Below are positions 1 to 4,950 of a stretch of 5,369 bases of DNA, in pieces. The notes below the pieces were generated by a model that was not told where the DNA came from, did no database searches, and worked only from the letters and a program-made list of their open reading frames with translations. The stretch spans positions 1-5,369 of the forward strand of contig QMUK01000077.1 in NCBI GenBank assembly GCA_003660555.1, given 5' to 3'. Numbering within the stretch: position 1 is the first letter of the stretch; each line of letters starts with the position of its first letter. The stretch is from Thermococci archaeon. Its GTDB lineage: Archaea > Hadarchaeota > B88-G9. Position numbers and translations under genes: made by a program.

Positions 1-738
1 CTCCGGGCCGTTTATGCTTATGAAGTAGGCATCTGCCTCATTGGCCACTGCTTTAGCTATTAGGGTCTTCCCCGTTCCAGGGGGGCCGTGGAGCAACACT
101 CCCTTGGGAGGCTCTATTCCCAATTTCTTGAACAACTCGGGGTGTTTCAGGGGGAGCTCTATCATCTCCCTTACTCTCTGTAATTCCTCCTTCAGTCCTC
201 CTATGTCTTCGTATGTTACTGTAGGCCTCACGATTTTCTCTTCAGATACGGGCCTCTCTGATATCTTGAGGTTAGTTGCCTCATTTACCTGCACGTATCC
301 GCTGGGATTCGTGTTAGTCACTACGAATGGTATAGATGTTCCTAGAACTGATATTCCGACTCTACTTCCCTTTCTCAGAGGTCTTCCTAGCAATTGATCC
401 CTCACATAAGCTTCGAAGCCCGGTGAGAACCTTATAGGCTCGGTTGGGGCTAAAGTTATGCTCTTAGCCTGTTTGACTTCTGTCTTTCTGACTTTCACAG
501 GCTCTCCCAGACCTACTCCTGCTTCTTTCCTCATGTATCCGTCCATCCTTATTATTCCCAATCCTTCATCCTCAGGATAAGCAGGCCAAGCTAAAGCAAC
601 GGTTTTCTCCTTACCCTCTATTTCCACTATGTCCCCTGAGCCTATTCCAAGCTTATTCATGGTGTATCTGTCTATTCTAACTATGCCTCTACCAACGTCT
701 CTTCCCTTGGCCTCGGCTACTTTGAGTTCCACCTCCAT
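1..738 (-). CDS. CDC48/VAT-family AAA+ ATPase, N-terminal part (cut by window edge)
   Basis: This is the first 246 codons of a cytosolic AAA+ unfoldase of the CDC48/p97/VAT family, which unfolds proteins for degradation or remodelling in archaea. Residues about 1-86 read as the double-psi beta-barrel half of the N-domain (start [21 protein letters not shown]), and about 105-165 as the second N-subdomain. The first AAA module opens with [12 protein letters not shown] near residue 174 and carries Walker A GPPGTGKT at 218-225. The frame stays open to base 1, so Walker B, the arginine fingers and any second AAA ring lie outside the window. The start is ATG at 738-736, supported by a strong Shine-Dalgarno site GAGGTGATC at 750-742. 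The gene diverges from the winged-helix regulator across an 84-bp promoter region. The family call is firm; one versus two AAA modules cannot be judged here, although this N-domain usually accompanies two. Confidence 0.93.
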
Positions 739-741
739 AAA

Positions 742-750
742 GATCACCTC
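742..750 (-). promoter_or_regulatory. Ribosome binding site of the CDC48-like gene
   Basis: On the minus strand GAGGTGATC, a nine-base match to the complement of the archaeal 16S rRNA 3' end, lies three bases before the ATG at 738. It fixes the start codon. The regulator on the other strand has the same GGTGATC core. Confidence 0.75.
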
Positions 751-756
751 TTGTTG

Positions 757-780
757 CTGACATTATGTCAGTGACATAAT
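757..780. promoter_or_regulatory. Palindromic operator with three alternating TGACAT half-sites
   Basis: Half-site TGACAT occurs at 758-763 (plus), as its complement ATGTCA at 765-770, and again at 772-777 (plus), each starting 7 bp after the last. This gives two overlapping perfect inverted repeats: CTGACAT-T-ATGTCAG at 757-771, and ATTATGTCA-G-TGACATAAT at 762-780. It sits between the start codons of the divergent CDC48-like and winged-helix genes and abuts their AT-rich TATA element. In the cdc48 direction it covers the stretch from TATA to the predicted transcript start; in the regulator direction it covers the BRE position. Such placement is typical of archaeal repressor sites. The regulator at 823-1374 is the obvious candidate to bind it, which would make the circuit autoregulatory. 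The symmetry is directly visible; the binding protein is inferred. Confidence 0.75.
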
Positions 781-797
781 ATATATAAACTTTTCCT
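780..797. promoter_or_regulatory. Bidirectional TATA element with minus-strand BRE
   Basis: TATATATAAA at 780-789 reads as TTTATATATA on the minus strand and can position TBP for either gene. On the minus strand it follows a purine-rich BRE-like GGAAAAG at 797-791, very close to archaeal promoter consensus, which points the stronger promoter toward the CDC48-like gene with a transcript start near 760. In the plus direction the BRE position is filled by half-site sequence (TGACATAA), and transcription would start near 810, giving a leader of about 12 bases before the regulator ATG. Whether one TATA box serves both genes cannot be settled by reading. Confidence 0.65.
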
Positions 798-813
798 CAG
801 TGCAAATGTACCA

Positions 814-822
814 GGGGTGATC
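814..822 (+). promoter_or_regulatory. Ribosome binding site deciding the regulator start
   Basis: GGGGTGATC ends directly at the ATG at 823, placing the G-rich core five bases upstream of it. This favours ATG 823 over the in-frame GTG at 817, which would lie inside the ribosome site. Confidence 0.6.
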
Positions 823-1374
823 ATGGAGGCAGAGATGGTACTGGACATACTGGGAAGTGAGACCAGAAGAAGGATACTGAGGCTTCTCTCTATAAGAAGG
901 AAATGTTATTTGACAGAAATATCCAAGATGCTTGAAATTAGCCAAAAAGCTTTGATAAGACATCTGGAAATACTAGAAAAAAGGGGAATAATATCATCGT
1001 ATTACGAGAAGGAAGAAGGGCCAGCTAGGAAGTACTTCTTCCTCAACAGAGGTTTGCAACTAGATTTGAGGATTGCCCCCGGCTCTTACGTGGTTCTCAC
1101 TAGAGAAGTGGTTGAGAGTCCAAAAAGCGAACTAGAGTTAGAATTAACCGAATGCAGGAGACTAGATCCAGAGGAAAGGATGAAGAAATTGAAGTCTCTT
1201 AGAAAGAAATTAGAGGAGAAACTAGAGGAGATCAACAGGGAGAGAGATTCGATATTGGACTTGCTCTCCAAAATAGACAGGGAGATGAGAGATGCTGAGA
1301 GAGAAGAAATTATGAAGAAGCTCAGGGAACTAGGGATAGAAAGAAAATCCATAGTTTTCAGGAGGATCGACTAG
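823..1374 (+). CDS. ArsR-like winged-helix regulator with C-terminal coiled coil (Phr-like)
   Basis: This is a cytosolic DNA-binding protein of 183 residues. Residues about 5-90 form an ArsR-type winged helix: [16 protein letters not shown] opens the domain, [17 protein letters not shown] (40-56) is the recognition helix, and [13 protein letters not shown] (62-74) is the wing. Residues about 116-170 are a Lys/Glu-rich amphipathic helix, probably a dimerising coiled coil. No metal-site cysteine pair or ligand domain is visible. From memory, the domain order, the LG-ETRRRIL opening and the GPARKY-type wing resemble Phr, the Pyrococcus heat-shock repressor, which controls an AAA+ ATPase gene, hsp20 and itself. 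The divergent CDC48-like ATPase and the palindrome between them support that reading. I chose ATG 823, with GGGGTGATC (814-822) as ribosome site; a GTG at 817 would overlap that site. Its stop shares the four bases CTAG with the convergent pstB stop. Regulator identity is strong; the Phr-like role is inferred. Confidence 0.88.
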
Positions 1375-2129
1375 CCAAATCTTCCTGTTATGTATTCCTC
1401 TGTTCTTCGATCTCTCGGGTTTTCGAATACTTGTGTGGTTTTTCCGTATTCTATGAGTTCTCCGTTCAAGAAGAAGGCTGTGTAATCTCCGATTCTAGCA
1501 GCTTGTTGCATATTGTGAGTGACTATTACTATGGTGTATTCCTTCTTGAGACTCACTAAAAGATCCTCTATCTTGGAAGTGGATATTGGATCCAAAGCCG
1601 AAGCTGGTTCGTCTAGAAGTAAAACTTCTGGATTAGTAGCTATTGCCCTAGCTATACAAAGTCTCTGTTGCTGACCCCCACTCAAGTTAGTTCCTAGTTC
1701 ATGCAACTTGTCCCTGACTTCCTCCCACAGAGCGGCTTTTTGGAGGCTTTCCCTCACTACTTTGTCTATGTATTCCTTGTCTTTTATTCCCCTTAGCTTG
1801 AGACCTATTGCCACGTTCTCGTAAATACTCATGTTAGGAAATGGATTCGGCCTTTGAAACACCATTCCCATCCTACTTCTGACTTCCACGGGATCCATTT
1901 TGTAGACGTCTCTTCCGTCTAAAATCACTTCTCCCTCTACCTTCGCCCCTCTCTTGAGCTCGTGAAGCCTGTTTATGCACCGTATGAACGTGCTCTTTCC
2001 ACAACCACTCGGTCCTATTATGGCGGTTATCGATCTATCCCTTATGACCATGTTTATGTTTTTCAGTGCTTGGAAATCCCCGTACCATGCGCTTAAATTT
2101 CTTATGGCTATTTTCTCATCTGAAGGCAT
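1371..2129 (-). CDS. pstB: Phosphate ABC transporter ATP-binding protein PstB
   Basis: This is the ATPase subunit of the high-affinity phosphate importer. It acts as a dimer on the cytosolic face of PstC-PstA and powers phosphate uptake by ATP hydrolysis. At 252 residues it has the usual PstB length. Walker A is GPSGCGKST (39-47), the Q-loop is at Q92 (VFQRPNPFP, characteristic of PstB), the ABC signature LSGGQQQR is at 149-156, Walker B VLLLDEP is at 169-175 and the switch histidine is H205 in VTHNM. All catalytic positions are intact. The ATG at 2129 is preceded by AGGAGGTAA, a near-ideal ribosome site that contains the pstA stop codon, so the two genes are probably translationally coupled. 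It is the last gene of the pst operon. Its TAG stop overlaps the stop of the convergent regulator within CTAG, leaving no room for a separate terminator between them. Confidence 0.97.
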
Positions 2130-2133
2130 GGAA

Positions 2134-2958
2134 TTACCTCCTGAGCTTGTATTTCACAGCTAAGTTTATGGCCAATACCATCAACATCAGGATTAAGGCA
2201 GCTCCCCATGCCTTCTGATGCCAATCTGGATACGGGGAAGTAGCATACACATATATGACCAGAGGTAGGGCAGAAACTGGCTCAAATGGGCTTCTAACGA
2301 ATTCCGGGTTTCCAAATGCTGTGAAAAGTAGGGGAGCTGTCTCTCCCATTATCCTGGCCAGGGCCAGCAATATTCCCGTTATTATTCCTGGTCTAGCTGC
2401 TCTAATTACTATTTTAGTTATGACTTTCCATTTCTCAGCCCCTAGGCTGAGTCCAGCCTCTCTGACATCTATGGGAACCAATTTGAGGGCTTCCTCGCTC
2501 GATCTGACTATGGTGGGTATAGCCAATATGCTGAGGGCAAAAGCACCTGCTATGGCTGAGAATCCAAACTTCCTGACTATGAGGGAATAGGCGAATACTC
2601 CTGCCACTATGCTAGGTGTCCCAGCGAAAGTGTCGCTTAGGAGTCTCACCAAGTTTCTGAACCAATTGTCTTGGTACTCCGAAAGGTATATTGCAGTTAG
2701 AATGCCCACGGGTATGCTGAAAGACATGGTCAATGCTGCTAAGATTATGGAGCCCTCTATGGCATTAGCTATTCCTCCTCCTACCTCCCCTGGAGGTTTT
2801 GGAAGAGAAATGAAGAACTCTAGACTCACTGCTTTTATTCCTCTCACTAGAGTAGTGCCTACTATATGTATTAGTGGCAAAATGGCAAATGAAAGTGAAA
2901 TGAAGCAGTAAATTGTAAATATTTTGTCTTTTATAAGCTTTGTTTTTGCCATTTCCAA
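2134..2958 (-). CDS. pstA: Phosphate ABC transporter permease PstA
   Basis: This is one of two membrane subunits forming the phosphate channel; it pairs with PstC and contacts PstB. It has 274 residues with about six hydrophobic segments (roughly 13-35, 65-92, 105-130, 134-152, 188-212, 250-270). The cytoplasmic coupling loop that docks the ATPase is the EAA-type stretch [16 protein letters not shown] starting at E167, followed by [10 protein letters not shown] (201-210), typical of PstA. The start is probably TTG at 2958, because a ribosome site GGGAGGGT (2972-2965) lies six bases before it; the ATG two codons later (2952) would sit twelve bases away. With TTG, the gene overlaps the end of pstC by 28 bases in another frame. 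Its TAA stop forms part of the pstB ribosome site. Function is well supported; only the start is uncertain. Confidence 0.95.
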
Positions 2959-3833
2959 ATTACAACCCTCCCAATCAAGTTCATCGATAAAGAAACAACT
3001 AAAAGTATGAAAGCTACAGCTATCAATGAAGAGAGGTGCAGATCCCCTGTGGCTTCAGTGAATTCGTTCGCTATTACAGCTGCCATTGTGTATCCTGGGC
3101 TTAAGAGAGAAGCAGATATAACGGGAGAATTGCCTATTACCATTGTTACCGCCATTGTTTCTCCAACCGCTCTTCCATATCCCAGTATTACTCCACCAAG
3201 AATTCCTATCTTGGCATACGGAATACAAACCTTCATCATGACCTCATATCTCCTTGCTCCGAGACTGTATAAAGCTTCTTTCAAGTCTTCAGGGACCATC
3301 ATCAGAGATTCCTTCATTATGCTCGATATTATCGGGGTTATCATGAAAGTCAAGATTATTATTGCTGTTAACATGGACAATCCGGTCAAACTTCTTCCAG
3401 AGAAAAGGGGGATGAACGAGAGTGGTTCCAACCAGTATTGGAGATGGTCCCTCACAAACGGTGCAACGTAGAATATTCCCCATAGTCCTATTATCACGCT
3501 AGGTATTGCTGCTATTAGCTCTATGAGTGAGGAGAGTACGTCTCTCAGTCTAGGTGGGGCCATTTCAGATAGAAACACAGCTATTCCCAAGCTTAGGACT
3601 ACCGATATCAGGAGAGATAACGTAGAAGTTAAAATGGTTCCATAAAGGAAAGGAAGTGCCCCGAAATCGTTTCTCAGCGGATTCCAGCTTTTTCCAAAGA
3701 CAAAACTCAGGCCGAAGCGCTTCCATGTAGGAATGGAATTGCACAAAAGTTGATGGAAAAAGAGCACAAAAAGCAGTACTATCAGGAGTGCGAAAAAGGA
3801 GACTAAGAAGAGAAAGAGTTTATCTCCCCTCAT
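2931..3833 (-). CDS. pstC: Phosphate ABC transporter permease PstC
   Basis: This is the second membrane subunit of the phosphate channel. It has 300 residues, with an N-terminal membrane anchor (about 7-29), an extracytoplasmic linker containing SWNPLRNDFGALPFLYGT (49-66), which resembles the start of PstC permease domains, and further hydrophobic segments near 64-89, 104-123, 152-172, 207-232 and 265-290. The EAA coupling loop runs from E186 (EALYSLGARRYEVMMK) and is followed by YGRAVGETMAV (219-229), matching the PstC-type permease core. The ATG at 3833 lies 14 bases inside the end of pstS, and GAGG directly abuts it, too close to work well as a ribosome site. Translation therefore probably depends on ribosomes finishing pstS. 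No frameshift or lost motif is visible. Confidence 0.95.
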   Translation of the reverse strand: MRGDKLFLFLVSFFALLIVLLFVLFFHQLLCNSIPTWKRFGLSFVFGKSWNPLRNDFGALPFLYGTILTSTLSLLISVVLSLGIAVFLSEMAPPRLRDVLSSLIELIAAIPSVIIGLWGIFYVAPFVRDHLQYWLEPLSFIPLFSGRSLTGLSMLTAIIILTFMITPIISSIMKESLMMVPEDLKEALYSLGARRYEVMMKVCIPYAKIGILGGVILGYGRAVGETMAVTMVIGNSPVISASLLSPGYTMAAVIANEFTEATGDLHLSSLIAVAFILLVVSLSMNLIGRVVIWKWQKQSL

Positions 3834-4917
3834 CCTCGCTCACTCTTACCTTGGATATCGCCTCTAGGTTGCGTTTCACGACTTCCTCTGGGAGAGGCAC
3901 GTATCCTAGGGGTTCACAGTACTTCTGCCCCTCCGTTAAAACCCACTCGAGGAAGTCCACTAGCGCTTTGGCTTTTTCCTCTGGCATGTAACTCAGATCT
4001 TGGTACAACAGTATATACGTGAAGCTGGACATTGGGTAGCTCCTCTCTCCCGGTGCATTGACTATGCTGAAACCATACCAGCTTTCATTCCACTCTGGAA
4101 GTTCCTCTATGGAATTCAGAGCTGCGCTAGAAATTGTCTCTAAATTTGCCTCTACGAAGTTTTCCTCTCTATTCATCAATAGTGCGTGCACTAATTTGTT
4201 TTGTATTGCATAAGTGAGCTCTACGTAGCCTATTGAATAGGGATTTTGCTTTACTGCCGCAGTCACTCCCTCGTTTCCTTTAGCTTGGACTCCTCTGTCC
4301 CCTATTTCTTTTGTGAATGGGAAGTTCTTTCCCCTTCCTATTTCCTTAGACCATCTCTCGCTTACTGAGGAGAGATAATCCGTGAATATAAAGGTAGTAC
4401 CACTACTATCTGCTCTCTTCACAACAACTATTCTCTCGGAGGGTAGATCAATTTCTGGGTTAAGTTTCTTCAGTAATGGGTCGTCCCATCTATCTATTTC
4501 TCCTAGATAGATCTTGGATATTGCTTCCCCGTCTAGTTTGAGTCTTCCCTTAATTCCCGGTAGGTTATAGATTATCACAACTGCTCCTATTGCCTCTGGA
4601 ATATGGAGAACCGTTCCCTTTGCTTTAGTGTATTCTTCCGGACTCATAGGAACGTCACTAGCTCCGAAATCGATTGACCTCTCTATCATTTGTCTTATAC
4701 CTCCTCCACTGCCTATACTCTGATAGTTCACTATGACTCTTCCTTGAGAGACTTTCTTGTACTCCTCAGCCCATTTCGCTATGAGCGGATATGGGAAGCT
4801 AGCACCTGCTCCGTTTATCACTATCCTTTCTTCACCTTTCTTTTCCCCATTTTCCCCTATGCATGCAGAGGAAAATAGTACTAGGAATAAGATGGGCAAA
4901 ACGCCCCTATGGGACAA
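3820..4917 (-). CDS. pstS: Phosphate-binding lipoprotein PstS
   Basis: This is the substrate-binding protein of the phosphate importer, secreted and held at the outer face of the membrane. With the preferred TTG start (4917) it has 365 residues, beginning with a short basic stretch, a hydrophobic core (VLPILFLVLF) and a lipobox FSSAC whose cysteine (C19) would carry the lipid anchor. Phosphate contacts known from E. coli PstS have counterparts: S40 and F41 in GAGASFP, S70 in SIGSGGG, D88 in DFGASD, and R168, S172, G173 and T174 in RADSSGTT. Only Thr10 of the E. coli protein is changed, to Ser. The alternative ATG at 4947 would add ten residues but lies four bases after a TATA box and has no ribosome site. 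This is the first gene of pstSCAB; its stop overlaps pstC by 14 bases. Family assignment is very firm; the start is less certain. Confidence 0.95.
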   Translation of the reverse strand: MSHRGVLPILFLVLFSSACIGENGEKKGEERIVINGAGASFPYPLIAKWAEEYKKVSQGRVIVNYQSIGSGGGIRQMIERSIDFGASDVPMSPEEYTKAKGTVLHIPEAIGAVVIIYNLPGIKGRLKLDGEAISKIYLGEIDRWDDPLLKKLNPEIDLPSERIVVVKRADSSGTTFIFTDYLSSVSERWSKEIGRGKNFPFTKEIGDRGVQAKGNEGVTAAVKQNPYSIGYVELTYAIQNKLVHALLMNREENFVEANLETISSAALNSIEELPEWNESWYGFSIVNAPGERSYPMSSFTYILLYQDLSYMPEEKAKALVDFLEWVLTEGQKYCEPLGYVPLPEEVVKRNLEAISKVRVSEDEGR

Positions 4918-4919
4918 GT

Positions 4920-4927
4920 CTCCACCC
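4920..4927 (-). promoter_or_regulatory. Candidate ribosome binding site of pstS
   Basis: On the minus strand GGGTGGAG lies two bases before the TTG at 4917. Its GGTG core pairs with the 16S tail, though less well than the sites of the neighbouring genes. No comparable site precedes the ATG at 4947, so this supports the later start. Confidence 0.45.
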
Positions 4928-4950
4928 GATGGGGCCAAGAGGTTCATGAG

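Follow-up and report, generated by a model that had tools for sequence, protein, structure and literature searches.

A distant Phr/HSR1 homologue divergent from a CDC48-type ATPase gene in a draft archaeal genome: a likely heat-shock circuit

Phr and HSR1 are the closest described counterparts of the regulator considered here. The Phr regulon of P. furiosus is reported to be a multi-gene one that includes VAT1 and HSP20 (PMC10746257), HSP20 and CDC48 were reported to be under the control of both Phr and HSR1 (PMC5852551), and a small heat-shock protein together with an AAA+ ATPase is described as the common regulon of the two (PMC10653856). The published HSR1 box is CTAAC-N5-GTTAG, while the Phr site is described as overlapping the transcription start, with the level of Phr falling at heat shock (PMC9133787). 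In Methanonatronarchaeum, the regulator AMET1_0853 and the CDC48 protein AMET1_0852 carry adjacent locus tags, and both were reported to be raised at high temperature (PMC5852551).

The locus described below occupies one end of a contig (C91) of a 1.3-Mb draft archaeal genome that is 91% complete; the contig, 5369 bp long, was analysed in its entirety and is called the window. We consider it likely that the locus is a heat-shock circuit of the Phr/HSR1 family.

Locus layout and identity of the two divergent genes

The window holds a cdc48 gene and a regulator gene arranged head-to-head and separated by an 84-bp intergenic region (Table 1). The initial annotation had described a regulator and a CDC48 gene in this orientation with a palindrome between them, and all three are present in the sequence.

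Table 1. Coordinates of the features at the cdc48-regulator locus (positions in the window)
Feature	Position	Strand	Evidence
CDC48/VAT-family AAA+ ATPase, 5' third	1..738	-	TIGR01243; Pfam CDC48_N, CDC48_2, start of AAA
cdc48 ribosome-binding site GAGGTGATC, 3 nt before ATG	742..750	-	sequence reading
Candidate operator CTGAC-N5-GTCAG, HSR1/Phr box layout	757..771		sequence; matrix from other loci; relatives' upstream boxes
19-bp perfect palindrome ATTATGTCA-g-TGACATAAT, second half-site pair	762..780		sequence; shuffling; genome search
Shared TATA-like tract	780..789	+	sequence reading; presumed role
Anti-16S-like sequence GGGGTGATC, directly before ATG 823	814..822	+	sequence reading
Phr/HSR1-like ArsR-type winged-helix regulator, 183 aa	823..1374	+	phmmer to 2p4w; NF053602; predicted helix

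The contig edge cuts cdc48 at position 1, so that the product consists of the N domain (CDC48_N, E 5.3e-34), domain 2 (CDC48_2, E 2.6e-19) and the start of the first AAA module with its first P-loop (Pfam). The CDC48 family model TIGR01243, which asks for an N domain, domain 2 and two AAA modules and for 802 bits, matches the product at 357 bits (E 1.7e-106) over profile positions 2-247 of 733, with the remainder past the contig edge.

The regulator has a winged helix followed by a long C-terminal helix. Its HTH_5/ArsR match has an E value of 1.6e-11 (Pfam), and residues 116-169 are predicted to form a helix with block means of about 72-89 pLDDT in a single-sequence model whose overall confidence is modest (mean pLDDT 64.6). 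The start codon is taken as ATG 823, in agreement with the starts of homologues, and ATG 835, preceded by GGAGG, is an alternative; position 739, given earlier as the start, holds as the beginning of the intergenic region and not of the gene.

The resemblance to Phr, which the initial annotation had noted, is confirmed by several matches. Phr (2p4w) is the top solved-structure match at E 4.8e-17 over residues 3-151, followed by SurR PF0095 at 1.6e-9 (phmmer), and Phr_regulator NF053602 leads among the NCBIfam models at 5.8e-19, followed by SurR at 2.8e-13. A Phr-family profile matches the protein at 1.2e-51, a value to be read with the window row itself being part of the alignment. The homology to the Phr/HSR1 family extends over the winged helix and beyond, and is better than that to other ArsR-type families. 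The scores lie below the curated cut-offs, with 68.4 bits against 320 for NF053602 and 50.1 bits against 250 for SurR NF047699, and the name Phr is therefore unwarranted: by sequence comparison, the protein is a distant Phr/HSR1 homologue and not Phr itself. It shares at most 37-40% identity with any relative, and in a tree of 55 rows it stands alone on a long branch, and the rows at the shortest path distance are for the most part family members linked to CDC48.

On the other side of the regulator, a complete pstS-pstC-pstA-pstB phosphate transport operon (1371-4947, minus strand) runs convergently, with overlapping stop codons. The gene phoU is absent from the 5369-bp window; another contig (C13, L061) encodes a PhoU-like protein whose N-terminus has an AbrB-like stretch.

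Intergenic palindromes and predicted promoters

Two perfect palindromes overlap in the intergenic region, CTGAC-ATTAT-GTCAG at 757-771 and the 19-mer at 762-780. Chance does not account for the 19-mer, of which shuffling predicts 0.01 copies per window, and no second copy was found across the 1.3-Mb genome with up to three mismatches allowed. The shorter palindrome has the same layout as the published CTAAC-N5-GTTAG box and differs from it by one symmetric change per arm (A to G, T to C). Under a matrix derived from 12 other loci, the window being excluded, this site scored 10.1 bits and ranked second in the window, behind a site of 10.3 bits within the CDC48 coding sequence (260-276) and ahead of a third at 6.1 bits; the score of 10.1 bits was reached at 2 of 62,458 other positions of the own genome and in 17 of 2000 intergenic shuffles.

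As the window box is two changes off the HSR1 box, the relaxed pattern CTRAC-N5-GTYAG was picked after the window site had been seen, and the matrix test alone is independent of this choice. In the own genome, the relaxed pattern occurs at the window site and once inside the trxB frame on contig C66, with no other occurrence. A one-mismatch TGACATNATGTCA site on contig C13 lies inside the PhoU-like reading frame; the location of both the C13 and the C66 site within reading frames makes neither a likely regulon member. An operator-like palindrome with the family box layout was thus found at no other intergenic place in this genome. The inverted repeat 742-754/810-822 was also considered as an operator and rejected, as it consists of two facing ribosome-binding sites.

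Promoters were called by the general archaeal BRE/TATA rules, and a sigma-70 scan was disregarded as irrelevant to archaea. On the minus strand, GAAAAG-TTTATATA (795..782) reads as a good predicted BRE/TATA for cdc48, and the plus strand carries a TATA-like TATATATAAA as the predicted promoter element of the regulator. The predicted cdc48 start lies near 760, some 26 nt downstream of the middle of the TATA box at 789..782, and falls inside the 757-771 palindrome.

Linkage and box among archaeal relatives

Searched with a profile of twelve family members, one of them the window protein, 95 of 297 archaeal genomes yielded relatives. Absence of the pairing from close relatives had been named earlier as an outcome that would speak against the circuit, and formally it is absent: no Phr-family homologue was detected at 1e-15 in 27 further genomes from the phylum of the window genome, none of which falls in that genome's own family. 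Outside the phylum, however, the pairing is widespread and recurs in many families. Of 52 Phr-family neighbourhoods from 24 archaeal families (609 kb), at least 23 have CDC48 no further than about 2.6 kb from the Phr-family gene, a lower bound because some unlinked loci end at contig edges, and these come from 11 of the 24 families, usually with Hsp20 as well. The co-directional orders regulator-cdc48-hsp20, regulator-hsp20-cdc48 and cdc48-regulator are the most common. Three divergent pairs were found, one with cdc48 followed by hsp20 opposite the regulator (G275), which equals the order inferred for the window locus, and two with hsp20-cdc48 opposite the regulator (G197 and G090); the window accordingly shows one of several recurring arrangements.

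The exact CTAAC-N5-GTTAG box occurs seven times in the 609 kb, each time 35-98 bp before a Phr-family start (7/7), and of the 32 occurrences of the shorter TAAC-N5-GTTA, 20 stand no more than 150 bp ahead of a Phr-family gene, compared with one of 16 for the scrambled control.

Variations on the arrangement were also observed. Four loci of family f5 genomes (L056, L131, L133 and L134) hold a second, diverged Phr-family paralogue that is unlinked to CDC48, and in two genomes the Phr-family gene is directly downstream of hsp20 with no CDC48 nearby (L125 in G245, L129 in G143), an arrangement that is a reduced form of the same Phr-CDC48-Hsp20 circuit.

The own genome carries two further CDC48 ends. 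Contig C119 starts inside a CDC48 3' end with hsp20 about 30 bp downstream, and a second CDC48 3' end lies at the end of contig C37; both contain one exact 123-bp stretch at the contig edges (C119:1-123 and C37:10644-10766; L040 and L041), after which they diverge. The genome accordingly has two CDC48 genes; the common stretch, in which the assembly was interrupted, suggests a recent gene conversion between the paralogues that caused the break. A short in-frame repeat (EFRDYREEFREFRD...) at the C119 edge (L040, 3437-3610) is probably another assembly-breaking repeat. The C119 tail is closer than that of C37 to the tails of regulator-linked CDC48s from families f11, f5 and f109. Because of this likeness, and since hsp20 usually stands beside linked CDC48s, the window cdc48 likely runs on into C119, with hsp20 downstream, the contigs themselves being unjoined; joining C91 by edge sequence gave no partner, the 150 bases at the start of the window matching nowhere else.

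Proposed circuit, alternatives and comparison with known systems

The regulator probably exerts local, heat-relieved repression of cdc48 (and hsp20) together with autorepression. We infer a course in which the protein would dimerise through its predicted C-terminal helix and the dimer would bind the palindromic operator at 757-780. From there it would block both divergent promoters, that of cdc48, with hsp20 probably downstream, by covering the predicted start, and its own by abutting the TATA-like tract. Upon heat shock or a build-up of unfolded protein, the regulator would leave the DNA or be depleted, and CDC48 and Hsp20 would then rise. A stronger version holds that the circuit has shrunk in this lineage to a one-operator local feedback loop, in which one pair of overlapping palindromes serves both promoters, the regulon is confined to cdc48-hsp20 plus the regulator gene, and the load may be sensed by CDC48 or Hsp20 itself through an action on the repressor; we regard it as unlikely.

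Control of the regulator's own gene alone, with CDC48 expressed constitutively and the neighbourhood carried along as a relic of an ancestral operon, would fit the standalone Phr-family genes that have their own box and no CDC48 nearby (Thermococcales-like family f9; L047, L136 and L137), as well as the position of the operator against the TATA-like tract of the regulator promoter. The same operator, however, also covers the predicted cdc48 start, and linkage retained or regained in 11 of 24 families in several orders and orientations is better explained by selection for co-control than by chance, which leaves self-control alone quite unlikely. The signal might also differ: instead of heat or unfolded protein, an ArsR/SurR-type regulator could sense redox state, a metal or some other ligand, as the winged-helix core is common to SurR (E 1.6e-9) and to ArsR metalloregulators (NF033788, E 7.8e-11). 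Phr is nevertheless ahead of SurR by 24 bits among the solved structures and by 18 bits in NCBIfam, the SurR pair sits on its own long branch in the tree, the regulator sequence has no Cys-x-x-Cys, and the partners are CDC48 and Hsp20 instead of sulfur or metal genes, all of which renders this sensing role highly improbable.

An association of the regulator with the convergent pst operon (1371-4947, minus strand), for which it might act as a phosphate regulator, is suggested by the overlap of its stop with that of pstB (1371-1374) and by a window that lacks phoU. The convergent orientation, the lack of any operator copy near pst in the window and the linkage of the relatives to CDC48/Hsp20 argue so strongly in the other direction that such an association is almost certainly wrong.

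The heat-shock circuit of the Phr/HSR1 family thus stands as the preferred reading, and it shares features with each described system. HSR1 of Archaeoglobus fulgidus (arCOG01684) belongs to a related family and is reported to control CDC48, Hsp20 and itself (PMC9133787, PMC5852551). Its operator, as published, has 5-bp arms and a 5-bp spacer, equal to the layout at 757-771 (PMC9133787), whereas the window arms read CTGAC/GTCAG and are accompanied by a second overlapping palindrome. HSR1 is described as sharing an operon with hsp20 (PMC9133787), while the window regulator is divergent. Phr of P. furiosus (2p4w), the top solved-structure match, likewise combines a winged helix with C-terminal helices, and its site is reported to overlap the start and to block polymerase recruitment, comparable to the predicted cdc48 start inside the operator. 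The window regulator is, however, distant from Phr (68 of 320 bits in NCBIfam), cdc48 is not adjacent to the Thermococcales-like phr loci, and the reported multi-gene regulon (PMC10746257) differs from the one intergenic site found in the window genome. The AMET1_0853/AMET1_0852 pair of Methanonatronarchaeum resembles the locus in that a Phr/HSR1-family regulator has a CDC48 neighbour (PMC5852551).

The initial annotation had singled out CDC48/VAT itself as the distinguishing target; this distinction falls away, as VAT1/CDC48 is already a published target of Phr and HSR1 (PMC10746257, PMC5852551, PMC10653856). The recurring Phr/HSR1-CDC48-Hsp20 linkage, together with the TAAC-N5-GTTA box, may aid the prediction of heat-shock regulons in uncultured archaea. 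The window locus adds one more case of a control circuit known in other archaea; it is no new kind of switch. Particular to it are the absence of other sites, a phylum otherwise without the regulator, the divergent order, the GC-shifted box and the second overlapping palindrome. With it, the known archaeal heat-shock circuit reaches into a poorly sampled phylum, in which the 27 other genomes analysed have no detectable Phr-family regulator.
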